Below are positions 27,885 to 42,328 of a stretch of DNA of 60,602 bases, in pieces; the stretch's first letter is position 1; each line of letters begins with the position of its first letter. The notes under the pieces are model-generated. The model saw only the letters and a program-made list of their open reading frames with translations. It did no database searches and was not told the origin of the DNA. Made by a program: the position numbers and the translations under genes. Location: the NCBI GenBank assembly GCA_030533005.1, contig JAUNJX010000004.1, positions 22,841 through 83,442 on the forward strand, in the 5' to 3' direction. The stretch comes from Clostridia bacterium. GTDB taxonomy: Bacteria > Bacillota > Clostridia > Christensenellales > CAG-138.

Positions 27885-27896
27885 TGAGAGGTGGCT

Positions 27897-28211
27897 ATGA
27901 CGGCGAAGCGCGAAGAATACGCAAGGGTCTTTAAGGCGTTCTGCGACGAAAAGCGGGTGCAGATCTTGGAGCTGCTGCGCGGCGGCGAAAAGTGCGCCTG
28001 CGTATTGATCGAACAGATGGATATGCCGCAGTCCACGCTTTCCTACCACATGAAAATATTGTGCGAATCCGGCGTGGTGGAAAGCTGGCAGGTGGGCAAA
28101 TGGACGCACTATCAGATCAGCGAAGCGGGTATCGGCAAGGCGCAGCGCCTACTTCTCGCCCTCACGGAGGACGCGCCCGCGGCCAAGGATTCCTGCGGCT
28201 GCGGCGCATAG
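27897..28211 (+). CDS. ArsR-family transcriptional regulator
   Basis: A 104-residue winged-helix repressor. CDEKRVQILELLRGGEKCACVL holds the helix-3 CxC pair in the place where ArsR proteins bind arsenite or other thiophilic ligands, followed by MPQSTLSYHMKILCESGVV (recognition helix) and a Cys-containing tail (SCGCGA). ATG 27897 has GAGAGG just upstream. It heads an operon with a CobW GTPase and a thioredoxin-like protein and has an operator on its own -10. Confidence 0.9.
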   Translation: MTAKREEYARVFKAFCDEKRVQILELLRGGEKCACVLIEQMDMPQSTLSYHMKILCESGVVESWQVGKWTHYQISEAGIGKAQRLLLALTEDAPAAKDSCGCGA

Positions 28212-28221
28212 GTAAGATGCC

Positions 28222-28413
28222 ATGAAACAAAAATCGCTTTATGTGCTGACCGGGTTTTTGGGCGCGGGCAAGACCTCGCTGCTGCTGCATCTGCTGGAGC
28301 AGATGCAGGACAAAAAGATAGGCGTGATCCAAAATGAGTTTGGAAAGCTGGGGATCGATGGCGAGATCATCCGGCGCAACGGCGTGGAGATGACGGAGAT
28401 CGGCCGCGGCTCC
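28222..28413 (+). promoter_or_regulatory. no separate signal: start region of the CobW gene
   Basis: Only 10 nt separate the arsR stop and the CobW start and no promoter is seen, so the gene depends on the arsR promoter. Confidence 0.3.
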
Positions 28414-29151
28414 ATCTTCTGTTCCTGTCTCAAGTTGTCCTTTGTACAGGCGCTATCGGAAATGGGCAGGATGGAGCTGGACTATGTGTTTGTTGAAAGC
28501 TCGGGGCTGGCCGATCCTTCCAATATAGAGGAGATCCTCGAAGCTGTCCGCGTGCTCGCGGGCGACGTTTATGCGCTCAAGGGCGTGATCTGCCTAGTTG
28601 ACGGCGTCAACTTTATGGCGCAGCTGTCCGACGAGCAGACCGTTGACCGGCAGCTGGCGCATTGCCACATGGCCGTGATCAACAAGGCGGACTTAATCAG
28701 CGCGGAACAGCTTGCCACGGTCGTTTCCGCCGTACGCCGTGTCAATCCCCTTTGCAGGCTCGTCACCTGCACAAACGGCAAGGTCGATCTCGATTTTCTT
28801 AATGCCGACCTGACCGAGCTGCAATGGGTCGCCTGCGAGGCTTCGCTCAACACCGTTGACAACAAGCCCAAGACCATCTCGCTGGAATGCGAGGCCGCCC
28901 TCTCCCAAGACGCGCTGCTGGCCTTTTTGCGCCGCGTGCAGCCGGATTGCTACCGCATCAAGGGCTTCTTCCAGCTTACGGACGGATGGCGGCAGGTGGA
29001 TACGGTGGAAAAGCTGATCGATATGAAGCCTTGCGAAGCGCGCGCCGTTTCCCAGCTTGTGTTTTTATCCAAGATCGGCCCGCAGGTGATACGCAGCATT
29101 GACAACGCGTGGAAGGAAACGGTCGGGCTGCCCATGAAACTGAAGAATTGA
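28222..29151 (+). CDS. CobW/ZNG-family GTPase
   Basis: A 309-residue G3E GTPase. Walker A is TGFLGAGKTSLL at residues 10-21, the switch region includes GSIFCSCLK, the Walker B-like strand is YVFVESSGLADP, and NKAD is the base-specific motif. The usual GCxCC metal motif is altered to FCSCL, retaining two Cys. A CobW C-terminal domain follows from about residue 215. Family members deliver or insert metals such as zinc or cobalt. It lies between ArsR and a thioredoxin-like protein, suggesting metal- or thiol-stress control. Confidence 0.88.
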   Translation: MKQKSLYVLTGFLGAGKTSLLLHLLEQMQDKKIGVIQNEFGKLGIDGEIIRRNGVEMTEIGRGSIFCSCLKLSFVQALSEMGRMELDYVFVESSGLADPSNIEEILEAVRVLAGDVYALKGVICLVDGVNFMAQLSDEQTVDRQLAHCHMAVINKADLISAEQLATVVSAVRRVNPLCRLVTCTNGKVDLDFLNADLTELQWVACEASLNTVDNKPKTISLECEAALSQDALLAFLRRVQPDCYRIKGFFQLTDGWRQVDTVEKLIDMKPCEARAVSQLVFLSKIGPQVIRSIDNAWKETVGLPMKLKN

Positions 29152-29159
29152 GGTGTGCT

Positions 29160-29402
29160 ATGCAGATCAAGGTGATCGGAACGGGATGCGATAAATGCAC
29201 CCGCCTTTACCAGAACGTGCAGCAGGCCGTCGCCACGCTGGGGCTTACGGCCGACGTATCGAAGGTGGAGGATCTTGTTGAGATCGTCAAGATGGGCGTG
29301 ATGAGCGTGCCCGCCTTGGCGGTGGACGGCAAGGTGGTATCGCTGGGCAAGGTGCTTAAGGCGGAGGAGGTCGTCAAGCTGCTGCAAAAGGCGCAGGGAT
29401 AA
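29160..29402 (+). CDS. small thioredoxin-like redox protein
   Basis: An 80-residue thioredoxin-fold protein of the small redox-active disulfide type. GTGCDKC near residue 8 is the CxxC site, MSVPALAVDGKVV carries the cis-Pro, and the GKVLKAEEVVKLL helix ends the fold. Such proteins often follow an ArsR regulator and a permease; here a CobW GTPase takes the permease's place. GAGG precedes ATG 29160. A terminator follows. Confidence 0.88.
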   Translation: MQIKVIGTGCDKCTRLYQNVQQAVATLGLTADVSKVEDLVEIVKMGVMSVPALAVDGKVVSLGKVLKAEEVVKLLQKAQG

Positions 29403-29411
29403 AGCAATATT

Positions 29412-29440
29412 GCGCGGGAAATACCCTGCGCTTCTTTTTT
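29412..29440 (+). terminator. intrinsic terminator of the arsR operon
   Basis: GCGCGGG pairs with CCCTGCGC (one bulged T), followed by TTCTTTTTT. Confidence 0.8.
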
Positions 29441-29443
29441 CTA

Positions 29444-29472
29444 TTGACAGCTAGCGTTTGCTAGCCTATAAT
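29444..29472 (+). promoter_or_regulatory. consensus promoter of the radical SAM-TetR operon
   Basis: TTGACA at 29444-29449, exactly 17 nt, TATAAT at 29467-29472. Both hexamers match the sigma-A consensus fully, so strong expression is expected when not repressed. Confidence 0.92.
29450..29465. promoter_or_regulatory. putative TetR operator 1, inside the promoter spacer
   Basis: GCTAGC-GTTT-GCTAGC, 16 bp, fills almost the whole spacer between -35 and -10. Confidence 0.75.
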
Positions 29473-29482
29473 GTCGAAAAAA

Positions 29483-29498
29483 GCTAGTGAGCACTAGC
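29483..29498. promoter_or_regulatory. putative TetR operator 2, just after the start site
   Basis: GCTAGTG-AG-CACTAGC is a perfect 16-bp palindrome. Its centre is 33 bp, about three helical turns, from that of operator 1, so two dimers would bind on the same face. Confidence 0.78.
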
Positions 29499-29518
29499 CG
29501 TTCAAAGAAGGATCGTAT

Positions 29519-30622
29519 ATGGAAAGCGCACAATTGGAGGCATACTTGCATCACGGCACGGAAAACATCCTCAAGGGTATTGTATCCGCGTCCTTACAAA
29601 ATCCCCAGGCCGCCCTGTTTATGGCAAAATACGCCCTGCACAGCAAAACCGCGCGCGGCAGGCGGGAGCGCGCGGCGGCAGCGGGGGAGCACATCCCGCC
29701 CTTTTTGATCGCCAGCATCACGGACAAATGCAACCTGCATTGCAAGGGCTGCTACGCAAGGGCGAACCATAGCTGCACGGACGGGTGCGGCCAAGGCGCG
29801 GCGCTTTTGCGCGCGGACGAATGGGATTCCGTCTTTACGCAGGCGGAGGCGCTGGGCGTCCAGTTTATCCTGCTCGCGGGCGGGGAGCCTTTTGTGAGGA
29901 AGGACGTGCTGCTGCAAGCGGGGCGTCACCCCGGCGTGCTTTTCCCCATATTCACCAATGGCACCATGATCGACGACGCTTATGAGAGGGTCTTGGAGCA
30001 AAACAGGAATCTCCTGCCCGTGATCAGCATAGAGGGCAATCAAAGCACCACGGACGCGCGGCGCGGCGCGGGCGTTTATCAGGTGATAGAAAAAACGATG
30101 GCACGCCTTCAAAAAAGCGGCGTCCTCTTTGGCGCGTCCGTCACGGTGACCAGGCAGAATATGCAGGAGGTGTTGTCGGACGCGTTCGTGCATACGCTCA
30201 AGGACGCGGGCGCAAAGGCCATCGTGTATGTAGAGTATGTGCCGGTGGACGCAAGCACCGTGGCGCTCGCGCCGGATGAAGGCACGCGGGAGGCAATGAT
30301 GCGCCGCCTGGATGCGCTGCGCTGCGACATGGCGGATATGGTATTGATCGCGTTTCCGGGCGACGAAAGGGCTTCCGGCGGGTGCCTTGCCGCAGGCAGA
30401 GGCTTTTTCCACATCAACGCCCACGGCGGCGCCGAACCCTGCCCCTTCTCCCCGTATTCGGATACCAATGTGCGCGACGTAACCTTGCGGGAGGCGCTCC
30501 ATTCCCCTCTGTTTCGCGCCCTGCAGTCAAGCGGCAGCCTCATGGAGGAGCATACGGGCGGATGCGTGCTGTTCGCACAGCAAAAGCAGGTGGAGCGCAT
30601 CCTACAGGAGCAGGCCGTATGA
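29519..30622 (+). CDS. radical SAM protein with SPASM-like C-terminus
   Basis: A 367-residue radical SAM enzyme. The cluster motif CNLHCKGC holds Cys71, Cys75 and Cys78. LLAGGEPF follows as the SAM-contacting GGE motif. Near the C-terminus, SGGCLAAGRGFFHINAHG followed by AEPCPFSPYS resembles the CxAGxxxxxIxxxGxxxPC core of SPASM/twitch domains, with a last Cys in GGCVLF, so one auxiliary cluster is likely. The substrate is unknown; no peptide precursor is evident beside it. It overlaps the TetR gene (ATGA), and the promoter carries two operators. Confidence 0.88.
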   Translation: MESAQLEAYLHHGTENILKGIVSASLQNPQAALFMAKYALHSKTARGRRERAAAAGEHIPPFLIASITDKCNLHCKGCYARANHSCTDGCGQGAALLRADEWDSVFTQAEALGVQFILLAGGEPFVRKDVLLQAGRHPGVLFPIFTNGTMIDDAYERVLEQNRNLLPVISIEGNQSTTDARRGAGVYQVIEKTMARLQKSGVLFGASVTVTRQNMQEVLSDAFVHTLKDAGAKAIVYVEYVPVDASTVALAPDEGTREAMMRRLDALRCDMADMVLIAFPGDERASGGCLAAGRGFFHINAHGGAEPCPFSPYSDTNVRDVTLREALHSPLFRALQSSGSLMEEHTGGCVLFAQQKQVERILQEQAV

Positions 30623-31257
30623 CCACCAAGGAACGGATCGTCAGCGAGGCGCTGACACTTTTTTCGCGCAAGGGCTATAAGGGTACGAGTGTCAAGGACA
30701 TCGCGGCGGCGGTGGGCGTCAAGGACAGCTCGCTGTATAAGCATTTTAAGAGCAAGCAGGACATACTCGACGCCATCATGGCGACGATCAAGGATCATAT
30801 CCAAAGGATAACGGAGAGCTTCGGGCTGCCAACGGGCACGGATTATGACGGCGCAGCGGCGTTTTACGCGACGCTGACGCAGGACGATCTGGTCGCGCTC
30901 AGCAACAAGATATTTCTGTTTTATCTCAAGGACGATCTGCTTTCCAAGTTCTGGCGAATGGGCAGCATGGAGCAGTTCCATAACCCGCAGGTATACGCGC
31001 TGTTCCGCCGGTTCTTTTTGGAGGACAGCATCCAGTACCAGGCGGCGCTGTTCTCTGAAATGATCCGCCATCATATCTTTATCGCGGCCGATCCCGAGGT
31101 GATGGCCGTAAGCTTTTATACGCCCATCTTCTTTTTGCTAAGCAAGTATGCGGGCCTGGAAAGCGATGAAGCGGAGGCGCTCGCGGCCTTGGATAAGCAG
31201 GTGAGAGAATTCTACCGGGTATATAAGGCTCCGCCCGCCGCATCCATGCCAATTTGA
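30619..31257 (+). CDS. TetR-family regulator
   Basis: A 212-residue repressor. The N-terminal helix-turn-helix (TLFSRKGYKGTSVKDIAAAV, then SSLYKHFKSKQ) is followed by a ligand domain with aromatic-rich helices. ATG 30619 overlaps the stop of the radical SAM gene and has CAGGAG upstream, so the two are translated together. Two 16-bp palindromes at their shared promoter are its probable targets. The duplicated secreted module begins directly after its stop. Confidence 0.9.
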   Translation: MTTKERIVSEALTLFSRKGYKGTSVKDIAAAVGVKDSSLYKHFKSKQDILDAIMATIKDHIQRITESFGLPTGTDYDGAAAFYATLTQDDLVALSNKIFLFYLKDDLLSKFWRMGSMEQFHNPQVYALFRRFFLEDSIQYQAALFSEMIRHHIFIAADPEVMAVSFYTPIFFLLSKYAGLESDEAEALAALDKQVREFYRVYKAPPAASMPI

Positions 31258-31284
31258 GGCTATTTTCCTTGATTTTCTTTGCTT

Positions 31285-31312
31285 TTGCTGGACAGCACGC
31301 CGAATATATGAT
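31285..31312 (+). promoter_or_regulatory. promoter of small secreted gene, copy 1
   Basis: TTGCTG, 16-nt spacer, TATGAT. Conserved in sequence and position in copy 2. Confidence 0.5.
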
Positions 31313-31348
31313 TTAATGAGGGTATCAAGTATAAGGAGGTATGCATCC

Positions 31349-31972
31349 ATGTTGCGTAAACGTGTTTTTGTTTTATTGCTGGCGGCCTTGCTGCTGCTCC
31401 CCTCCGCCCTCGCCATGGCAGAGGAGGAGCCTGTGTTCGATCATACATTGAATTTGAACAAAAGGAAGCCGCAGATCAACCTCGAATTACTCGCCCCGGA
31501 AGGCTATGTCAATATCAACGGCGTCGTCGTGAGGCAGGATTCGGTGTCGAAGCCGCGTCTGAATCCGGGATCGGTTGAGGATTCGCAGGTCAGTGAATTC
31601 ACACTAACTGCCACCATGATGCGGCAGATCGCCGTGGCCGGTCTCCTGAACGAGAAATTCGGGGATCTCTTTGATCTCAGCAAGGTTACCATAACCGAGG
31701 ACAGCTTCACCTACGGGGATGGCGACGAGATGATAGATTTCAGCCAATCCCGCTATTACGTCATAAACGGCGAGCGTTTCCTTATCCCCGCCGTCCACAT
31801 GTCCGATCTGGTGGGCCACGAGTTTAAGATAGATGGCTTAAACAGAGCACCGATCATCGAGTTGAAGGTTGAAAAGGCTATCCAGAAGCAAAATAGCGAA
31901 TACATCAATGATGCGTACATGGAGGCTTCGCAGGACGGCATAAACGCGGATGCTGAAGAAGTTCTGAATTAG
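31349..31972 (+). CDS. small secreted protein of duplicated module, copy 1
   Basis: A 207-residue protein with a signal peptide (LRKR, leucine/alanine core, cleavage likely after ALAMA near residue 23). The mature part is acidic, without Cys. It contains INGVVV, a (D/S)SFTYGDGDEMIDFS(Q)S stretch and YYVINGERFLIPA, and these three spots are what it shares with the copy at 34027. Otherwise the mature sequences differ widely. I do not recognise the family. AGGAGGT lies 8 nt before ATG 31349. It is convergent with the large secreted gene. Confidence 0.85.
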   Translation: MLRKRVFVLLLAALLLLPSALAMAEEEPVFDHTLNLNKRKPQINLELLAPEGYVNINGVVVRQDSVSKPRLNPGSVEDSQVSEFTLTATMMRQIAVAGLLNEKFGDLFDLSKVTITEDSFTYGDGDEMIDFSQSRYYVINGERFLIPAVHMSDLVGHEFKIDGLNRAPIIELKVEKAIQKQNSEYINDAYMEASQDGINADAEEVLN

Positions 31973-31980
31973 AACGGGCA

Positions 31981-32025
31981 ATGGCCGCAGACCTCGCGGG
32001 ATGGGCGCGATGCGGCCATGCTTTT
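31981..32025 (+). terminator. terminator-like hairpin after small secreted gene, copy 1
   Basis: ATGGCCGCA pairs with TGCGGCCAT across a 21-nt loop, followed by GCTTTT. Confidence 0.55.
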
Positions 32026-32062
32026 GCCGGCTGCGGCAGGCTTCATTTTAGAGATGTATGCG

Positions 32063-32094
32063 AACGGGACGGCCGAAAGATCGGCCGTCCCGTT
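32063..32094. terminator. shared hairpin between convergent genes, copy 1
   Basis: A 14-bp perfect stem (AACGGGACGGCCGA and complement) with an AAGA loop. It is the same in copy 2, though neither side has a long T run. Confidence 0.7.
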
Positions 32095-32122
32095 GTTATG
32101 CTGTTTGCAGTGGAGGGTGCGC

Positions 32123-33703
32123 TTATTGCCCCCAAATGGCGGTGGAACCGTCTATGGTAATGAAGCCGAAGTTATCAAGAAGGATATCCTCCGTCATGTA
32201 GATCTTGCCCGCCGCCATCTCGTCGTAGGTGAATTCCAGCATGGGCATCACATGATCCAAGGTATTGAGGTAGGAGGCGTCGTTGGTGTCGCAATCCACC
32301 ATGTTGGGAGAAAGCATCTTAAAGAGAGGGCCGTCCTCCGCGTCACCGGGCTGAAAGTAGTAAATATGGCCATAGGTGTACTCCCATGACGGCACAAAGC
32401 CAGATCCGTAATCCGCCCAATAGGGATACATGGTGGCAAGGCGATCACCCTGCTTATCGAAAGCGCGCACCTCGATCTTGGCGTCCTCCACAGACGCATC
32501 CGACCAGTAGATATCGTAGGCGCCGGTAGTAAACGACCCGATCGTATCATAGGGCGCTACGCGGGCGTCCGCGGGCTTATCGGGGTAATCATTGGGACGC
32601 TTGACCCTGCCGCCAGCAGGCTTATACTCCCCGTCGACCATGACGTAGAGCCAGTCAAAATCCGATTCCACCACCAGCCGGTTATTCACAGAGGGGGCAA
32701 AGGCGTCGATCCAGCTTTTGAAGTATTCGGGCTTTGTATTGTTGCCCGCAGCATCCTTGCCGATAAACTGCTCATATCCGCCGCCCCAGCTCAGATCCCA
32801 TATGTCAAACCACGGCGCCACCTTTGCGCCCGCGGGAATTTCCTGCAGTGCAAAGGCGAGCTGGCAGCCCGGATCGGTGCAGCTCTTTTCCATGCCGGTG
32901 GGCGCCCAGCCGTAAAGCGTCGCGTCCAGCGGCGCAAAGGCGCCGTTTTGCTCCAAGCCGCCCTCCAAGCCGCAGACGCCGGTGACATAAGCGCCCGTGA
33001 CCTTGCCCTTGCTGTCGGTGCTGAAAAACACCTTATAGGCCGCGCAGTCGCCGGAGAACAGGAAGCCGTTGAGGTTGGTGGCTTTGCAGTTGGGGCAGGG
33101 CTTGACGCCTCGATAGCTCTTTTTTTCCACCCTGTAGCAGCCATTGATATAGATGTCGGAAAGCTCGCCCCGCGCGCTAAACGCCGCCTTGATCTGCGCA
33201 ATACCGTCTTTCTGTGCGTCCGCCTTGAGGATATGCTTGCTGCCGCAGCCGCAGCTGTTGTTGAGAGCCTCCACCCATGTCGCGTCAAAGGTCTTGCCGT
33301 TATACCAAAGGGTCTGCGTCCTGTCCGTCAGCTTGACCTTGCACCTTTCTTTGGTTTTACCCTCCAGATTGGTATAGGTGATCGTCACCCATATCGTGGC
33401 GCCCGGATACAGGTTGTCGAAACTGCTGTTGGCATAATAGGCGATGGCTTCCTTATAGGAGGGCATCGTCAGCTTGATGGCATAGTAAACGGTATCCTTG
33501 GCCTTGATGCTGCCAGCGCCGTCAAACGCCGTATAATAGGTGACGCCCAGCGCATCCGTGTGCGGCCGCAGCGGGATCACCTCGATCTGGAAGGGCAACT
33601 CGGCGGTGGTTTCCACAGGCGCCCACCAGCTCTGGGCAGAGGCGGACGCCGCGACGCCCAAGATCATGAGCAGCGTCAAAATGAGAGCGACGGTCTTTTT
33701 CAT
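32123..33703 (-). CDS. large secreted Cys-containing protein of duplicated module, copy 1
   Basis: A 526-residue protein with a signal peptide (KKTVALILTLL, cleavage likely after ASA near residue 23). Residues 65-130 look like a beta-rich, Ig-like segment (TVYYAIKLT, ATIWVTITYTN). Then comes a Cys-rich centre: CGCG at 151-154, Cys189, CPNC at 203-206, Cys220 and more, resembling a zinc or disulfide knot. The C-terminal third is aromatic and acidic, ending in TIDGSTAIWG. No known family recognised. ATG 33703 is chosen over 33736 because the signal peptide begins there. Confidence 0.87.
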   Translation of the reverse strand: MKKTVALILTLLMILGVAASASAQSWWAPVETTAELPFQIEVIPLRPHTDALGVTYYTAFDGAGSIKAKDTVYYAIKLTMPSYKEAIAYYANSSFDNLYPGATIWVTITYTNLEGKTKERCKVKLTDRTQTLWYNGKTFDATWVEALNNSCGCGSKHILKADAQKDGIAQIKAAFSARGELSDIYINGCYRVEKKSYRGVKPCPNCKATNLNGFLFSGDCAAYKVFFSTDSKGKVTGAYVTGVCGLEGGLEQNGAFAPLDATLYGWAPTGMEKSCTDPGCQLAFALQEIPAGAKVAPWFDIWDLSWGGGYEQFIGKDAAGNNTKPEYFKSWIDAFAPSVNNRLVVESDFDWLYVMVDGEYKPAGGRVKRPNDYPDKPADARVAPYDTIGSFTTGAYDIYWSDASVEDAKIEVRAFDKQGDRLATMYPYWADYGSGFVPSWEYTYGHIYYFQPGDAEDGPLFKMLSPNMVDCDTNDASYLNTLDHVMPMLEFTYDEMAAGKIYMTEDILLDNFGFITIDGSTAIWGQ

Positions 33704-33783
33704 AAGCTGTACCTTAATCCCTTTCCAACAAGACATGCTGTGCGGCGAGCCTCTGCTGCCCGATATTTTATATGATTCAATTG

Positions 33784-33812
33784 ATTATACCGCAGCTTAT
33801 CACCGACGGCAA
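33784..33812 (-). promoter_or_regulatory. promoter of large secreted gene, copy 1
   Basis: On the minus strand: TTGCCG, 17-nt spacer, TATAAT. The same promoter is found in copy 2. Confidence 0.8.
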
Positions 33813-33860
33813 TAGAAAAAAGCCGAATATTTGGCATAAATGCGCGCTTATACCACATAA

Positions 33861-33920
33861 GCGGCCATGCTTTTGCCGGCTGCGGCAGGCTTCATTTTAG
33901 AAATGTATGCAAACGGGACG
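33861..33920. repeat. 60-nt direct repeat of 32012-32071
   Basis: Identical except for two A/G differences. The original contains the end of the terminator of the first small gene and the left half of the shared hairpin; this copy is cut off inside the hairpin and so is a fragment. Confidence 0.85.
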
Positions 33921-33962
33921 TTTCCGTCAGAGGGAGGCAATTTTCCTTGATTTTCTTTACTT

Positions 33963-33990
33963 TTGCTGGACAGCAGGCCGAATATATGAT
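33963..33990 (+). promoter_or_regulatory. promoter of small secreted gene, copy 2
   Basis: TTGCTG, 16-nt spacer, TATGAT, matching copy 1. Confidence 0.5.
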
Positions 33991-34026
33991 TTAATAAAGG
34001 TATCAATCCTGAGGAGGCATGCATCC

Positions 34027-34635
34027 ATGTTGCGTAAACGTGTTTTTGTTTTATTGCTGGCGGCCGCGCTGCTGCTCCCCTCCACCCTTGTCATGGCAAG
34101 TGTAGATGACGGCTTGACGCTCGATATCTCGATCAACTTAAACGAGAGGGATAAACTGATCCCCCTCGACATCAAGCCCAAGGGGAACGAGATATTGATC
34201 AACGGCGTCCTCGTGGAACTGATATTACCGAACAATGAAATAACCTCACCCGCTATAAATACCGATATGCTGCGGAAGGTATACTCGATCGAGCAATTAA
34301 TGTCGGATGAACTGCATATGCACACATTTTCACTTAACAAGGTCCGCATAGGTAGCGATTCCTCTACTTACACGGTGGATGACGATGTCATAGACTTTAG
34401 CAAATCCGGCTATTATACCATAAACGGCCAGCGGATGCTGATTCCCTCTGCTGAGAACGATCAGGAGAACCTGATGAATCGCCAGTTTGAGCTGACAGAC
34501 CTTGACAAATCACCCCTCATCACTTTGAACGTTGAGGTTGACGAGAAACAAAACGATGCATATTCCGACGTATTTGATTTTGAATCATGGCGTAAGCAAG
34601 GCGGTTTTGATCAGATCCAGGAAGAGCCCAGTTAA
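34027..34635 (+). CDS. small secreted protein of duplicated module, copy 2
   Basis: A 202-residue protein. Its first 20 or so residues are almost the same as those of the copy at 31349 (LRKRVFVLLLAA, then LLLPS), but the mature part differs, keeping mainly INGVLV, a DDDVIDFSKS stretch and YYTINGQRMLIPS. Like its relative it is acidic and lacks Cys. GAGGAGG precedes ATG 34027. Convergent with the second large gene. Family unknown. Confidence 0.85.
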   Translation: MLRKRVFVLLLAAALLLPSTLVMASVDDGLTLDISINLNERDKLIPLDIKPKGNEILINGVLVELILPNNEITSPAINTDMLRKVYSIEQLMSDELHMHTFSLNKVRIGSDSSTYTVDDDVIDFSKSGYYTINGQRMLIPSAENDQENLMNRQFELTDLDKSPLITLNVEVDEKQNDAYSDVFDFESWRKQGGFDQIQEEPS

Positions 34636-34727
34636 TAGGGGATGTCCCCAGGCTCCGTGAGATGGGAGCGGCCGGGTCCTTCTTTTGCCCACATGGGGCA
34701 GATTAAGCTACAGAGACGATATGCGAA

Positions 34728-34755
34728 CGGGACGGCCGAAAGATCGGCCGTCCCG
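34728..34755. terminator. shared hairpin between convergent genes, copy 2
   Basis: CGGGACGGCCGA with its complement around AAGA, as in copy 1. The remaining part of 34636-34785 is unlike copy 1. Confidence 0.7.
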
Positions 34756-34785
34756 CTGTTATATCGTTTGCAATGGAAGGTGCGC

Positions 34786-36372
34786 TTAACTCCCCCAAAT
34801 GGCGGTGGAACCGTCTATGGTAATGAAGCCGAAGTTATCGAGAAGGATATCCTCCGTCATGTAGATCCTGCCCGCCGCTATATCCTCGTAACCAAAGCCC
34901 AGCATGGGCATCACATGATCCAAGGTATTGAGGTAGGAGGCGTCGTTGGTGTCGCAATCCACGCTGGTGGCGGAGAGCATCTTAAAGAGAGGGCCGTCCC
35001 CCGCGTCCCCGGCTTGAAAGTAGTAGATGTGGCCATAGGTGTACTGATCCGACGGTACCCACGTGCCAAACCCATCGTCCTCCCAATAGGGATACATGGT
35101 GGCGAAGCGCTCACCCTGCTTATCAAAAGCGCGCACCTCGATCTTGGCGTCCTCCACGGACGCATCCGACCAGTAGATATCGTAGGTGCCGGTAGTAAAC
35201 GGCTTACTCGCATCAAAGGGCGCTATGCGGGCGTCGTCGGGCATATCGGGGTAATCATAGGGGAGCTTGACCCTGCCGTTCGCAGGCTTATACTCCCCAT
35301 CGATCATGACATAGAGCCTGTCAAAATCCGCTTCCTCCACCGGCCTGCCATTCACAGAGGGGGCAAAGGCGGCGATCCAGCTTTTGAAGTATTCGGGCTG
35401 GGTATTCTTGTCCGCAGCATCCTTGCCGATGAACTGCTCGTATCCGCCGCCCCATTTCAGATTCCAATTGTAAAACCAGCTATCCACCTTTGCGCCCGCA
35501 GGAATTTCCTGCAGCTTGAAGGCAAGCTGGCAGCCCGCATCGTTGCAGCTTTTTTCTATGCCGGAGGGCGCCCAGCCGTAAAGCGTAGCGTCCAGCGGCG
35601 TAAAGGCGCCGTTTTGTTCCAAGCTCCCATCCAGCCCGCAAACGCCGGTGACATAAGCGCCCGTGACCTTACCCTTGCTGTCGGTGCTGAAAAACACCTT
35701 ATAGGCCGCGCAGTCGCCGGAGAAGAGGAAGCCGTTGAGATTGGTGGCTTTGCAGTTGGGGCAGGGCTTGACGCCCCGATAGCTCTTCTTTTCCACCCTG
35801 TAGCAGCCTTCGATATAGATATCGGAAAGCTCACCCCATGCGCCGAAGGCCGCCTTGATCTGTACGGGGCCGTTTTGCGCCGCGTCCGCTTTTAGGATAT
35901 GCTTGCTGCCGCAGCCGCAACTGTTGTTGAGAGCCTCCACCCATGTCGCGTCAAAGCCCTTGCCGTTATACCAAAGCGTCTGCGCCTTGTCCGCCAGCTT
36001 GACCTTGTACCTTTCCACATCCGTTTTGCCCGCCACGTTGGTGTAACTTACACTCACCCGCACCGGGGCGCCCGGATACAGGTTGCTAAAGCTGCTGTTG
36101 GCATAATAGGCGGTGGCTTCCTTATAGGAGGGCAGCGTCAGCTTGATGGCATAGTAAACGGTAACCTTGGCCTTGATGCTGCCGCCGCCGTCAAACGCCG
36201 TATAATAGGTGACGCCCAGCGCATCCGTGTGCGGCCGCAGCGGGATCACCTCGATCTGGAAGGGCAACTCGGCGGTGGTTTCCACAGGCGCCCACCAGCT
36301 CTGGGCAGAGGCGGACGCCGCGACGCCCAAGATCATGAGCAGCGTCAAAATGAGAGCGACGGTCTTTTTCAT
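34786..36372 (-). CDS. large secreted Cys-containing protein of duplicated module, copy 2
   Basis: A 528-residue protein that follows the first copy over its whole length, with the same signal peptide, the same central CGCG, CPNC and single Cys positions, and the same ending. Differences cluster in the Ig-like segment (residues 95-130) and around 160-185. One Cys of copy 1 (KERCKVKL) is Tyr here (VERYKVKL). Start ATG 36372 as in the other copy. It is likely secreted; no function can be assigned. Confidence 0.87.
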   Translation of the reverse strand: MKKTVALILTLLMILGVAASASAQSWWAPVETTAELPFQIEVIPLRPHTDALGVTYYTAFDGGGSIKAKVTVYYAIKLTLPSYKEATAYYANSSFSNLYPGAPVRVSVSYTNVAGKTDVERYKVKLADKAQTLWYNGKGFDATWVEALNNSCGCGSKHILKADAAQNGPVQIKAAFGAWGELSDIYIEGCYRVEKKSYRGVKPCPNCKATNLNGFLFSGDCAAYKVFFSTDSKGKVTGAYVTGVCGLDGSLEQNGAFTPLDATLYGWAPSGIEKSCNDAGCQLAFKLQEIPAGAKVDSWFYNWNLKWGGGYEQFIGKDAADKNTQPEYFKSWIAAFAPSVNGRPVEEADFDRLYVMIDGEYKPANGRVKLPYDYPDMPDDARIAPFDASKPFTTGTYDIYWSDASVEDAKIEVRAFDKQGERFATMYPYWEDDGFGTWVPSDQYTYGHIYYFQAGDAGDGPLFKMLSATSVDCDTNDASYLNTLDHVMPMLGFGYEDIAAGRIYMTEDILLDNFGFITIDGSTAIWGS

Positions 36373-36452
36373 AAGCTGTACCTTAATCCCTTTCCAACAA
36401 GACATGCTGTGCGGCGAGCCCGTGTTGCCCGATATTTTATATGATCCAATTG

Positions 36453-36481
36453 ATTATACCGCAGCTTTTTGCCGCCGGCAA
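36453..36481 (-). promoter_or_regulatory. promoter of large secreted gene, copy 2
   Basis: On the minus strand: TTGCCG, 17-nt spacer, TATAAT. Confidence 0.8.
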
Positions 36482-36516
36482 CAGAAAAAAGCCGAACATT
36501 TGGCATAAATGCGCGC

Positions 36517-37800
36517 TTATACCACCAGCGCGCGCGCGGCGTCGTACTGCGCGTAAAGCCTGTTGGCGGCGATATCCTCCAAAATATCCACCAGCCTGCG
36601 GACGTCAGAGAAGGAAGTGTACAGCGGCGCAGGCGCAAGGCGCACGACGTTGGGCTCGCGGAAATCGGGTATGACGCCGCGATCCTTCAGCGCGCGGCAT
36701 ATGCGCCACGCCTCGTCATGTTCAAGCGCGACATGGCCGCCGCGCGCCGCGTCCTCGCGCGGGTTGCCGACCTGAAAGCCGTATTTTGTCAGGCGTTCGT
36801 CGATAAGGTACATCAGATACGCCGTAAGCTGCAAGGATTTTTCCCGTATGGCGGGCATGCCCGCCTCCTCCGTGATGCGAAGCGCCCCCTCCAGCGCGGC
36901 CATGGAGAGGATGGGCGGGGTGCCCGTGAGCCACCCGTCCGCGTCCGGCGACGGCTCGTGCGTGTCACGAAGCTGAAACTGCGTTTCCTTTTTGTTGCCC
37001 TGCCAGCCCGCAAGACCGGGCGCTATCGCAAAATGCCTGCGATTGATGTATAGACCCGCCACCGTGCCGGGGCCGCCGTTTAGATACTTATAGTTGCACC
37101 ACACGGCAAAATCCGGCGCGCACGCGTCCAGCGCATGCGGCACGACGCCGATGGAGTGGCAAAGATCCCAGCCGATGAGGACGCCGCGAGCATGCGCCGC
37201 GGCGGTCAGGCGCGCCATGTCAAGAAGCTGCGCGCTGCGATACAGCGCGGACGGCAGCAGCGCAAGCGCCACATCCTCCGTCATGGCGGCGATGAGCGCG
37301 TCCTCGTCGATCCTGCGCCCGTCGGGGCTTTTTACCACCTTGAGCGCCGTATCCGGCTCCAAACCGTGCAGGCGGAGCTGGCTTGCCACGGCATAGCTGT
37401 CGGTAGGGAAATTCAGATCGTCCACCAGTATTTTATAGCGGGCGGGCGTAGGCTTATAAAACGTCGCCAAGCATTGATGGATGTTGACCGTCGTGCTGTT
37501 GGTGAGCGTCACCTCGCAGGGTTCCGCGCCGATAAGGGACGCGACCTTTGCGCCCAGATAGGACGGATAGAGGAAATACTTGCTCTCCTCCGCGCTCCAA
37601 ATATTGATGGCGTCGTTCTTCCACACCTCCAGCGCGTGCAGCACGCACGCCTCCGCGTCCTTGGAGCACAGCCCCAAGGAATTGCCGTCCATATAGATCA
37701 CGCCGGGCTTGCAATAAAAGCGCGCGCGCAGCCCCTTTAGCGGATCCTTCGCATCCAGCGCCGCTGCAAAGGCGGCGCTGTCCTCAAACCTGTTTGTCAC
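36517..37800 (-). CDS. kynU: kynureninase
   Basis: A 427-residue PLP enzyme that cleaves kynurenine to anthranilate and alanine. Visible are YMDGNSLGL near residue 36, TNSTTVNIHQ near 100, WDLCHSIGV near 211 (PLP-binding Asp212), and CNYKYLNGGPG with the Schiff-base Lys238. The C-terminal VRLAPAPLYTSFSDV motif is also typical. Length is normal for the family. No other kynurenine-pathway gene lies next to it. Its last codons and stop match the right end of module copy 1. Confidence 0.95.
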   Translation of the reverse strand: MTNRFEDSAAFAAALDAKDPLKGLRARFYCKPGVIYMDGNSLGLCSKDAEACVLHALEVWKNDAINIWSAEESKYFLYPSYLGAKVASLIGAEPCEVTLTNSTTVNIHQCLATFYKPTPARYKILVDDLNFPTDSYAVASQLRLHGLEPDTALKVVKSPDGRRIDEDALIAAMTEDVALALLPSALYRSAQLLDMARLTAAAHARGVLIGWDLCHSIGVVPHALDACAPDFAVWCNYKYLNGGPGTVAGLYINRRHFAIAPGLAGWQGNKKETQFQLRDTHEPSPDADGWLTGTPPILSMAALEGALRITEEAGMPAIREKSLQLTAYLMYLIDERLTKYGFQVGNPREDAARGGHVALEHDEAWRICRALKDRGVIPDFREPNVVRLAPAPLYTSFSDVRRLVDILEDIAANRLYAQYDAARALVV

Positions 37801-37887
37801 TTGCGTTCCTCCTAATCATCATGCTTCTATCCTATCACAGATCGCGCGTTTGGAAAAATGGAAAGGTATGGAAAAGGGCGTTTGGCG

Positions 37888-38658
37888 CTACGCGCGCGCC
37901 TCCGCCGCCATGCGTTTCACGGCGTCGATCAGCCATATCGCGTCCATGCCGCACGCGACGCAATCAAAGCCGTCGGCAAAAAAGCGTTTGGCTCTCGCCG
38001 GATCGCCGGCGTAGATCATGGCGATCTTTTTATGGCTGTGGCATACGCTCAATACATGCGCGATCGCGCTCACAAGCTCAGGATCATCCATCTGCGCGGG
38101 CTTTCCCAGTGCCACGGACAGATCGTACGGCCCGATGAAGATGCCGTCCACGCCCGGCATGGCCGCGATCTCGTCTATATGCCGCAGGCACTCCTCCGTC
38201 TCGCATTGCGGTATAAGAAGCGTTTCCTCGTTGGCGGTGCGAAACAGCGTGTCGGTATCCTGCGCGAACGGCGCGTAGCCCCATGCGCTTGCGCGCACGG
38301 GCGCAAAGCCCCTGCGTCCAAGCGGATCGTACTTGGCGTATTCCACCAGCGCTTCCACCTCCTGTACCGTACGCACGTCCGGCACGATCAGCCCCTTTGC
38401 GCCTATATCCAGCATTTTGAGGATGGACGGGCGCGTCGTATCCTTGACGCGGACAAAGGGCGTGATATCATGATTGCCCGCCGCAAGCACCGCGTCGCGC
38501 GCGCTCTCCACATCGTACGGCCCATGCTCGGTATCGATGATGAAAAAATCCAGACCGCCTATGGCAAGACCCTCCGCCGCGGCGGTTCCGCCCAGCTCGT
38601 AGAACGTGCCCAGCGCCTGCTGACCGTTTGCAAGCATTTCCTTGACCTTGTTTCGCAT
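37888..38658 (-). CDS. HpcH/HpaI-family aldolase
   Basis: A 256-residue TIM-barrel class II aldolase of the HpcH/HpaI (2-keto-3-deoxy acid) type. DFFIIDTEHGPYD near residue 40 and GLIVPDVRTVQEVE are signatures, with QCETEECLRHID and GVDGIFIGPYDLSVALG carrying the metal ligands. It splits or forms 2-oxo-3-deoxy acids with pyruvate as one product. Start ATG 38658 has AAGGAGGAG upstream and a good promoter. Proximity to the pectin locus may mean sugar-acid catabolism, but it is a separate transcript. Confidence 0.88.
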   Translation of the reverse strand: MRNKVKEMLANGQQALGTFYELGGTAAAEGLAIGGLDFFIIDTEHGPYDVESARDAVLAAGNHDITPFVRVKDTTRPSILKMLDIGAKGLIVPDVRTVQEVEALVEYAKYDPLGRRGFAPVRASAWGYAPFAQDTDTLFRTANEETLLIPQCETEECLRHIDEIAAMPGVDGIFIGPYDLSVALGKPAQMDDPELVSAIAHVLSVCHSHKKIAMIYAGDPARAKRFFADGFDCVACGMDAIWLIDAVKRMAAEARA

Positions 38659-38694
38659 GATGCTGCTCCTCCTTTTTCGGTAGGGGTTAAAATA

Positions 38695-38723
38695 AGTATA
38701 GGGTGCGCGGAACGCCGCGTCAA
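38695..38723 (-). promoter_or_regulatory. promoter of the aldolase gene
   Basis: On the minus strand: TTGACG, 17-nt spacer, TATACT, about 37 nt before the start. Confidence 0.75.
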
Positions 38724-38860
38724 CGCCTGTTTCCGGCAAGACGCACGGCATTGACCGTTTTTCGCGGCGTTTTTTGTGTAGATATAAGCCCGCGGGCACG
38801 CGCCGCAGGCTTTCTTTAGATCGTCTCGGTTTATGCGGCCACCCTGCACGGCTTCTTAGA

Positions 38861-39646
38861 TCACCGTCGCGCGCTTTGGCACTGCATCCATGCCGCGCAC
38901 AGATCGAACCACGCCGCCACATGGGGATCCGCAAGGCGGCGCTTTTCTGGCTGCTGTACCTCTATCGTCGCAAGCGACAGCCCGTGCGCGCCCGTGGGGA
39001 AAATGTGCAGCTCGCTTTTTACCCCGGCGCGAAGCAAAGCCTCATAGAACAAAAGCGAATTCTGCACGGGCACGGATTCGTCGTCGGCGGTATGCCATAA
39101 AAACGCGGGCGGCGTCTGCGCCGTAACGTGGTTTTCAAGGGAAAAATAGGCGTTGAGCGCCGCGTCCCCGCCCGTCAGGCGCGCTATGCTGCCCCGGTGC
39201 GCGTAAATGCCCGCGCTGATGACAGGATAGCTTAAGATCAAGCCGTCCGGCCTTTGCGCTTCGCGCTCCTCCCGCATGGTAAAAAGCGCCTCGTCCTGCC
39301 CATGCACCCCCAGCGACGCGGCCAAATGCGCCCCGGCGGAAAAGCCGCAGACAAACAGGGGCTTTCCCCGCCACGCCGCAATATCGCGCGCCGCGCGGAC
39401 AGCCCACGCAAGCTCCCGCAGCGGCAGCGTCCCAAGGGGCACATCCGCCACCGAATAGTACAATATCACGCCCTGATAGCCCTTTTTTGCAAAGGCCGCC
39501 GCCACGGGCAGGCTCTCCCGCGCCGAAAGCCATTCGTATCCGCCGCCGGGGCAAATGATCACAACACCCTTGCAGGCCTCCATCGGCTGATAGGTCACAA
39601 AAGCTGCGCTAAAGGGACAATCGATCCGTTTTTCTTCACCCTGCAT
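38861..39646 (-). CDS. alpha/beta-hydrolase esterase of the pectin locus
   Basis: A 261-residue esterase without signal peptide. VVIICPGGGYEWLS gives the oxyanion HGGG-type loop, FVCGFSAGAHLAA the nucleophile elbow (GxSxG), TADDESVP the acid and GAHGLS the catalytic His. This resembles intracellular acetylxylan or pectin acetylesterases. The start overlaps the end of the GH105 gene by 11 nt, so it is the last gene of that transcript and probably deacetylates imported oligogalacturonides. Confidence 0.82.
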   Translation of the reverse strand: MQGEEKRIDCPFSAAFVTYQPMEACKGVVIICPGGGYEWLSARESLPVAAAFAKKGYQGVILYYSVADVPLGTLPLRELAWAVRAARDIAAWRGKPLFVCGFSAGAHLAASLGVHGQDEALFTMREEREAQRPDGLILSYPVISAGIYAHRGSIARLTGGDAALNAYFSLENHVTAQTPPAFLWHTADDESVPVQNSLLFYEALLRAGVKSELHIFPTGAHGLSLATIEVQQPEKRRLADPHVAAWFDLCAAWMQCQSARR

Positions 39647-40781
39647 GCGTTTCTGCCTCCCCTATCGCCGCAGCTTCGGCATAGGCCATCAAGAAGGGCG
39701 CCACGCCCTTCGCTTCGTCGCACACGACAGGCTCGGATATGTAATAATCAAAGCTGCCGTCGCGCCGTTCGTTGTCCTCCGGCCCCAAGCCCGCCACAAG
39801 GCAGATGCCCGTAAGGGACAGGCGGCCGTCGTGCTCCTCCAGCTTGTTTTCCTCTATCGCACGAAGCAAAGACAGCCCCGCGTCGCGGAAACGCTCCCCC
39901 AGCGCGCCGCCGTTATAGCCGCGCAGGCACGCGTAGGCCGCAAGCGCCGTGCCGCTGGTCTCGGGGTAATTGCCCGCGCGCGACCCCTGATCCACCACCT
40001 GAAAGAACATGCCGCTGTCCGCGTCCCGATAGGCAAGCAGCCCGCTTAGCGCCTCCACGAGGCAATCGCGCAGCCACGCTTTCCCCGCGTGCGTTTCCGG
40101 CCATTCCGCCGCCGCGTCCGCAAGGGCGGCGACCCACCAGCCCATGGCGCGCAGCCACACGCAGGCGGACAAGCCCCTTTCGTCCGCCCAGAACGCTTTG
40201 CCGCTCGCGTCATAGCCGTGGCGATACAGGCGCGTCGCCGGGTCGTACATGCGCTTTCGCACCGTCTGAAATTGCAGAAGGATATCGTCGTATTCGCAGC
40301 TTTCCAGCAAATTCGCCCGTCTTAGGCGAAACACCTGCGCCATGTATAAGCCGTCCAGCCACACCTGATTGGGATAGATCAGCTTGTGCCAAAAGCTGCC
40401 CTCCAACGTGCGGGGCTGGCGCAAAAGCTGCCCCTGCAAACGCTCTATGGCGCGCAGATACCTTTCTTCCCCCGTCATGGCGTACAGATCGATCAGCGCG
40501 TTGCCCTCGCAGATGTTATCAAGGTTATAGCTCGCCTCGTCATAGCCGCGCAGACTGCCGTCCGCCAATACATAGTAAGCAAGGAAATCCTTGCAAAACG
40601 CCGCGTAGCGCGCGTCGTTTCGCACGCCGCCCAATCGCAGCAGCGCGCGGAGCATGCAGCCGTCGATATAGTTCCAGTGCGCCGCCGCGCCGCTTCGCAT
40701 GCGCTCCACATTCCAAACGGGCGCTTGGGGCGTGGATTCCGCAAGCAGCCTTGACACATACCGTTCCACCGCATCCCGCAT
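39636..40781 (-). CDS. GH105 unsaturated glucuronyl/rhamnogalacturonyl hydrolase
   Basis: A 381-residue (alpha/alpha)6-barrel hydrolase. The N-terminal HWNYIDGCMLRALL and the FWHKLIYPNQVWLDGLYM region, with the catalytic Asp in QVWLDG, match the GH105/YteR-YesR family; WLRAMGWWVAAL is also typical. It removes the unsaturated uronyl end left by pectate or rhamnogalacturonan lyases. There is no signal peptide, so it acts in the cytoplasm. ATG 40781 lies 2 nt after the GH28 stop with GGAGGAA upstream. A lyase that makes its substrate is not in the window. Confidence 0.9.
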   Translation of the reverse strand: MRDAVERYVSRLLAESTPQAPVWNVERMRSGAAAHWNYIDGCMLRALLRLGGVRNDARYAAFCKDFLAYYVLADGSLRGYDEASYNLDNICEGNALIDLYAMTGEERYLRAIERLQGQLLRQPRTLEGSFWHKLIYPNQVWLDGLYMAQVFRLRRANLLESCEYDDILLQFQTVRKRMYDPATRLYRHGYDASGKAFWADERGLSACVWLRAMGWWVAALADAAAEWPETHAGKAWLRDCLVEALSGLLAYRDADSGMFFQVVDQGSRAGNYPETSGTALAAYACLRGYNGGALGERFRDAGLSLLRAIEENKLEEHDGRLSLTGICLVAGLGPEDNERRDGSFDYYISEPVVCDEAKGVAPFLMAYAEAAAIGEAETHAG

Positions 40782-40783
40782 GG

Positions 40784-42328
40784 CTATTCCTCCGTAAAGC
40801 TGTCCGTATTGCCAAGGTGCACGCGTTCGCCCTCCTCGCCTTGGATACACACGTTTTTCAGGCGCACGTCCCGCACGTTTTCAAAGAAAAGCCCCTGCTT
40901 TTTGCATGGTTCGATATCGCACATCATGGCGGGGCAGTCGCTCTGCGCGTCCGGCGCGAAGCGAAAGCTCGCGTTTTCGATGTAAACGCTGCCGATGGGC
41001 TGTTCGGGCAGGCCGTAGAAATAGCCCGCCGCCGCGTGGCAGTCCTCGCAAAGGATATCGGTAAAGCGGAAGCTGCCAAGATACGGCGTGCCCTCGTCAA
41101 TCGGCTGCGCCTCTTTGCTCTGCACATAGTCGCTCTTGCCGTCCGCATCGCAGCAATAAAACATGTTGATGACCAGCGGCGTGCGCACGCCCCGCATGCG
41201 GATGTTGGAAAAGCTTACCCCGTCGATCACGGCATGCTTGCCCCGCCCGCGCCGGGTCTTGATGCGAAGCCCCCTGTCCGTATCCACGAACAGGCTTTGG
41301 CTGACACTTAGCGTATCGATCCCGCCGCTCATCTCGCTGCCCAGCACCACGGCGCCGTGCGCAAATTCCATCAGGCAGTTGCGTATGGTGTGGCGGCTGG
41401 CACGCGGGAAAACCAGCTCCCCCGCCCCCGCCTTGCCCGATTTGATGGCGATGGCGTCGTCGCCTACGGAAAAGCGCGCGCCGATGATGCTTACGCCGTC
41501 GCAGCTTTCGGGATCGCACCCGTCTGTGTTGGGCGAATCCTTGGGCGCGCGCACGCGGATATCGTAAAAGCCGACGTTTTGGCAGCGATACGGATGCAGG
41601 TTCCACGAAGGGGAATTCTGCACCGTCACGCCCTGCATCACGACGTCCCGGCAGGCGTTTAAGAACAGCATGCGGGGACGGCCGACGGTGCGTTTTTTAG
41701 GGTCCATCCACCACGTCGCGTTTTGCGCGTTGCCGTCCAACAGCCCTTCGCCGACGATGTAGATATCCTCGGCATGCTGGGCGCTAAGCAACGCCTGATG
41801 GGACGGCACGGCGCGCCCCTCCCACGCGGCGCACACGACGGGCGCGCCCTTTGCGTCCCGCCCCGCCGTGGCAGGCCATACGGGATAGTCCGCCTCGTTG
41901 GTGCTGCCCAACAGCGCCGCGCCCTTTTGAAGCTCCAGCGTGATATGGCTTTTTAATAAGATGGGCCGTATGGAATACACGCCCGGCGCGATCGTGACGC
42001 GCCCGTCCTTGGGGCAGGCGTCGATCGCCATTTGGATAGCGGCGGTATCGTCCGCTACGCCATTCCCCACAGCGCCAAAGTCCCGCACGGGAAGGCACGC
42101 GCTTTGCGCCCGCGTGTGAAAGGGCAGCGCAAAATCCCCCGATAGGGTGGAGAGCGTATAGTCCGTATCCGGCGCAAGATCAAAGAGGGAGAACACGTTT
42201 TCGCGCCGCTCCCCCAGCGCTTTGCCGTTTAGCAGCAGCGTATAGCTTTCCTTTGCATAATAGGCGGCGTCGTTCTCGCATTCAAAGCAAGCGGAACAGC
42301 AGCTGATCATCAGCGCGTGGAATCGCAC
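40784..42328 (-). CDS. GH28 polygalacturonase (exo-type, intracellular)
   Basis: A 514-residue parallel beta-helix enzyme. After an N-terminal beta-sandwich part (residues 1-75), the GH28 signatures appear in order: NTDGCDPESCDGV, GDDAIAIKSG, HGAVVLGSEMSGG and RGLRIKT. No signal peptide, so it likely cuts imported oligogalacturonides from the end. The start is GTG 42328 with AGGAGG upstream, overlapping the previous membrane-protein gene. It is followed by GH105 and the esterase in one operon. Confidence 0.92.
   Translation of the reverse strand: MRFHALMISCCSACFECENDAAYYAKESYTLLLNGKALGERRENVFSLFDLAPDTDYTLSTLSGDFALPFHTRAQSACLPVRDFGAVGNGVADDTAAIQMAIDACPKDGRVTIAPGVYSIRPILLKSHITLELQKGAALLGSTNEADYPVWPATAGRDAKGAPVVCAAWEGRAVPSHQALLSAQHAEDIYIVGEGLLDGNAQNATWWMDPKKRTVGRPRMLFLNACRDVVMQGVTVQNSPSWNLHPYRCQNVGFYDIRVRAPKDSPNTDGCDPESCDGVSIIGARFSVGDDAIAIKSGKAGAGELVFPRASRHTIRNCLMEFAHGAVVLGSEMSGGIDTLSVSQSLFVDTDRGLRIKTRRGRGKHAVIDGVSFSNIRMRGVRTPLVINMFYCCDADGKSDYVQSKEAQPIDEGTPYLGSFRFTDILCEDCHAAAGYFYGLPEQPIGSVYIENASFRFAPDAQSDCPAMMCDIEPCKKQGLFFENVRDVRLKNVCIQGEEGERVHLGNTDSFTEE

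Follow-up and report, generated by a model that had tools for sequence, protein, structure and literature searches.

Tandemly duplicated anchorless members of a sortase-type surface-protein family and their orphan neighbour in a Clostridia genome

The closest described systems are the sortase-anchored surface proteins, represented by the curated models TIGR01167 (LPXTG_anchor) and NF033846 (Rumino_NPXTG). A signal peptide and an exported body are features which these proteins have in common with the family analysed here, and a sorting signal ([ILVP]P[AKNQ]TG, a hydrophobic helix and a basic tail) closes 18 of the 18 complete aligned members other than the window pair, a sortase gene being present as well. 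The two large proteins of the window (the whole stretch of 60,602 nucleotides that was analysed) differ from the described proteins in the lack of the entire C-terminal sorting signal, and the body of the family matches no curated family.

Another point of comparison is an array of three genes on contig C51 of the host genome. Their products belong to the same full-length family (38–39% identical to large A in full-length matches), and they are also tandemly duplicated, but unlike the window pair they lie in the same direction, encode anchored proteins and have no small gene; the synonymous divergence among them is ~0.8–1.2 vs. 0.23 for the window copies. The small proteins of the window bear a weak by-eye likeness to Cu_amine_oxidN1 (PF07833) in their YxINGxRxLIP stretch. 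This candidate was rejected, since the profile–profile score was 16.6 (probability 1%) and the best of 60 column-shuffled controls reached 16.4.

In the account that we consider probable, the window holds anchorless tandem paralogs of a sortase-type surface-protein family together with an orphan neighbour which has no necessary functional link to them.

The surface-protein family of the large genes

Large A and large B, whose lengths of 526 and 528 aa are counted from a conserved MKK start, are 84% identical over ~525 aa. The mature proteins contain 11 and 10 Cys, and the N-terminus is signal-peptide-like by inspection (MKK, a hydrophobic core and ASA/Q, aligned in all members), which agrees with the Cys-containing secreted protein of about 527 residues described in an earlier note on this DNA. 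AlphaFold models built from two-row alignments of the window proteins had a mean pLDDT of 36 and 32, which is too low for use.

The host genome encodes five further full-length paralogs of the large protein (three on C51, one each on C69 and C72), making seven in all, and each of the five ends in [VI]PATG followed by a hydrophobic stretch and a basic tail. The member on C72 (L013:6751-9156) is 802 aa long; its modules are repeated internally, and VPATG is preceded by an additional C-terminal domain. Other genera of this GTDB family have shorter relatives (~250–490 aa), in which the shared N- and C-terminal modules enclose a variable middle; 13 shorter relatives from other genera carry [ILVP]P[KNQ]TG tails. 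Two members in another genome, G009 (L049 and L069), keep IPKTG but terminate at DASVLAWLF and lack the complete hydrophobic helix and basic tail. Among the complete aligned members, the sorting signal is missing only in the two window copies. The NCBIfam models LPXTG_anchor and NPXTG match 8 and 7 of 20 members (E up to 0.1), and a sortase (PF04203, E 2.8e-19) is encoded on contig C42 of the genome.

With a core-only HMM, from which leaders and tails were removed, the better shorter relatives were still matched (E 1e-10 to 1e-5 at Z=200,000), so the likeness does not come from leaders or tails alone; the full-length members of the own genome gave E < 1e-160, these being the same members that built the model. 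An order-wide search with the core, covering 396 genomes, gave matches in nine genomes of five genera, all of the same family, and none in the other families of the order. In this sampling, the large family is restricted to the GTDB family of the host. A looser model, with leader and tail included, matched 23 of the 103 family genomes (10 genera), some of the weakest matches being confined to the leader.

No meaningful family was found for the large protein, its paralogs and relatives in Pfam, NCBIfam and PDB sequences except for the anchor models, and the small proteins have no relative in the same three collections, which bears out the earlier statement that neither protein belongs to a known family. 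The large protein had no match in phages, scans of general collections of genome contigs and viral contigs gave no matches, and a literature search on these proteins returned nothing relevant. The large proteins belong to a previously undescribed surface-protein family, which is probably wall-attached. The host assembly is 85% complete and broken into 95 contigs, with family members close to contig edges, so these counts may leave out further paralogs or small genes.

Both window large proteins stop right after a conserved W-G, and PxTG, the hydrophobic helix and the basic tail are absent from each of them. No tail remnant or frameshifted anchor was found in any frame downstream of the two stops. 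Because the window copies alone have no sorting signal, our prediction is that they represent released forms of a family that is otherwise wall-anchored, and because the tail is present in all other aligned members, it would have been lost in the window pair and not gained by the others. The wall attachment of the relatives is suggested by the motif and by the sortase gene of putative specificity.

The loss of the sorting signal might also have made the window copies nonfunctional, so that they persist as decaying remnants. Such a fate would fit the presence of the tail in every other aligned member, and a remnant of another member does exist on contig C51. This is a ~75-aa frame that separates the second of the anchored paralogs from the third (L011:3959-4736); its family-type leader runs almost directly into a degenerate tail (TITTPGAGD, a hydrophobic stretch and NRKNDNKK), and it apparently arose by internal deletion. 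However, we regard decay of the window copies as very improbable, since both frames are intact over 526–528 codons, with dN/dS of ~0.4 and in-frame indels, and both large promoters are kept.

According to the preferred account of anchorless paralogs, ordinary members of the family would be exported by the signal peptide and probably fixed to the wall through the [ILVP]PxTG end by the sortase of the genome. In the common ancestor of the window pair, the sorting tail would have been lost, and the product of the two copies is predicted to be released or only loosely held, representing a soluble form of the surface protein.

The duplicated block and its borders

A tandem repeat of ~2.6 kb is present in two copies (Table 1), each composed of a convergent small/large gene pair, a hairpin of 12 bp and the promoters. 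The tandem duplication claimed in the earlier note is confirmed: most of the block is covered by families of direct repeats (up to 300 nt, with a spacing of 2657–2678 and 87–92% identity), and the 84% identity of the large proteins is far beyond chance. Both of the convergent gene pairs it described are present by coordinates and strands. Identity between the units starts at ~31256/33934 and ends at ~33860/36524, which makes the span given there (31260–36525) nearly exact.

Table 1. Features of the duplicated block (positions in the window).
Feature	Position	Strand	Description
Unit A	31256..33860	.	from the small A promoter to the kynureninase-tail remnant
Small A	31349..31972	+	207-aa orphan acidic protein; signal-peptide-like leader; AGGAGG upstream
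Hairpin, unit A	32063..32096	.	between the convergent genes; likely bidirectional terminator
Large A	32123..33703	-	526 aa, Cys-containing, predicted exported; anchorless member of the sortase-type surface-protein family
Putative sigma-A promoter, large A	33784..33812	-	TTGCCG-17-TATAAT
Kynureninase 3' end remnant	33848..33856	-	GTGGTATAA read on the minus strand; position approximate, few bases
Junction scar, 60 nt	33861..33920	.	97% identical to unit A intergenic 32012-32071
Unit B	33934..36524	.	overlaps the kynureninase gene (last codons) at its right end
Small B	34027..34635	+	orphan acidic protein, 202 aa; nearly the same leader as small A
Hairpin, unit B	34728..34755	.	between the convergent genes
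Large B	34786..36372	-	528 aa, 84% identical to large A; without sorting signal
Putative sigma-A promoter, large B	36453..36481	-	TTGCCG-17-TATAAT

Five promoter-like sites were found over the region vs. 4.1 expected, a number not above chance; TTGCCG-17-TATAAT recurs at the same place upstream of the large gene in both units. Each small gene is preceded by an AGGAGG ribosome site and a conserved stretch, and the promoters of the two are ~92% identical, in line with the conserved promoters reported earlier. The hairpin reported as shared is also present in both units: the GC-rich sequence CGGGACGGCCGA-AAGA-TCGGCCGTCCCG is located between the convergent stops, folds strongly on both strands (z -6.9 to -8.8) and, outside the two units, is absent from the rest of the genome. 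Most likely, it represents a bidirectional terminator, though its T-run is weak.

The kynureninase gene contributes its final 9 nt to the duplicated block. On the minus strand, GTGGTATAA forms both the end of the unit A copy and the last codons of the kynureninase bordering unit B. The presence of this tail in unit A indicates that the copied block crossed a gene border and that unit B stands in the original context. The 60-nt scar between the units is, judging from its sequence, a trace of a more complex event. It lies upstream of the small B promoter and hints at a lost further copy.

Directly upstream of the block (27891–31257), genes for an ArsR regulator, a CobW GTPase, a small thioredoxin, a radical SAM protein and a TetR regulator run in one direction. 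To its right (36517–42328), the minus strand carries genes for kynureninase, an HpcH/HpaI aldolase, GH88 and GH28, the last two suggesting pectin breakdown. The genus has one other genome (a 72%-complete assembly), and a synteny check did not find kynureninase there. In the preferred account, the ~2.6-kb segment between the TetR and kynureninase genes was duplicated after the loss of the tail, and the convergent orphan gene for the second exported protein was copied with it, which needs no functional link to the large gene.

Mosaic divergence of the small genes

The small acidic secreted protein of the earlier note is retained in part: the mature proteins are acidic (calculated pI of 4.5 and 4.2) and have a signal-like leader, while the size is corrected to ~200 aa and the two copies prove to be 40% identical overall and 33% identical in the mature part. 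The small ORF is probably a real gene, as indicated by its ribosome site, by indels in multiples of three and by the excess of synonymous over nonsynonymous change per site. A two-row profile of the small proteins gave no significant match in the rest of the own genome, which has two copies only, or in 103 genomes of the family and 391 of the class (values near 0.004 in much longer ORFs were taken as chance). No match to the small protein was found in plasmids. It was also rejected as a relative of the large family, since only its leader aligns.

At the nucleotide level, the small genes form a mosaic, with ~92% identity in promoter and leader and ~50% in the mature part; the fall is abrupt and lies near the leader cleavage site. 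The uncorrected synonymous difference is 0.05 in the small leader, 0.64 in the mature small part, where synonymous sites are near saturation, and 0.20 in the large genes. The same codon is used at 31 of 55 conserved residues in the small genes vs. 370 of 423 in the large ones (Fisher p 1.7e-7). Since selection at the protein level alone would not raise synonymous change, the mature small parts would be older, exchanged or faster-mutating.

Perhaps the mature region was swapped by recombination with a diverged gene, like a cassette behind a constant leader, and did not diverge in place. The abrupt drop of identity and the near saturation of synonymous sites point in this direction, as does the GC content of small B (47% vs. 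58% for the window). However, no donor gene was found in the own genome or in relatives, and the same picture would result if the divergence were older and gene conversion had later affected everything else. Conversion is further suggested by 180 nt around the start codon at the 5' end of the large genes, which are 100% identical between the copies. We give exchange somewhat less than an even chance. It concerns the history of the small genes and is compatible with the account of anchorless paralogs, according to which recombination or recent common descent would account for the likeness of the large genes and of the small promoter and leader, and the mature small proteins would have diverged or been exchanged.

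The relation of small and large proteins and its meaning

Both proteins are apparently exported, as the earlier note had it, with N-termini that have a signal-peptide look by inspection (LPSALAMA/EEE, VAASASA/QSW). From the joint copying of the pair, it was further suggested that they are functional partners. They could form a soluble complex or represent an active protein with its inhibitor, the mature small part being diversified between the copies. This would correspond to the distribution of the small gene, which is found beside both anchorless large copies and beside none of the five anchored copies (0/5) in the own genome, and to the maintenance of both small ORFs, where indels fall in multiples of three and synonymous change exceeds nonsynonymous change per site.

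However, since both pairs descend from one duplication, the association of small and large genes is a single data point. The block carries the kynureninase gene end and disregards gene borders, so the joint copying cannot count as evidence for a partnership. Each gene of a convergent pair has its own promoter. The large copies are 84% identical in amino acids, while ~67% of residues differ between the mature small proteins, and a corresponding change in a partner surface could not be shown. Genomes of other genera with shorter anchor-bearing large relatives have no significant small homolog. This comes close to the case that the earlier note named as counting against it, a large protein that is common and a small one that never stands beside it, and a functional module of two proteins is not supported by these sequences. 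We consider partnership unlikely. In a more specific version, the anchorless large protein and the small acidic one would make up a released system of two components, the small one providing the specificity and being diversified behind a constant promoter and leader, the large one serving as a conserved scaffold; this seems to us improbable.

Taken singly, the duplication, the orphan genes and the loss of the anchor are each ordinary. An adhesive or shielding role of the family at the cell surface may be suggested from the sequences. The locus documents an unnamed, lineage-restricted surface-protein family of one bacterial family, whose duplicated copies appear to have shed the wall anchor, and an orphan gene for a predicted exported protein in which the divergence of the mature part has far outpaced that of the leader and of the neighbouring genes. 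As an example of either exchange or rapid change in an exported protein, the mosaic of the small genes can be put to the test.
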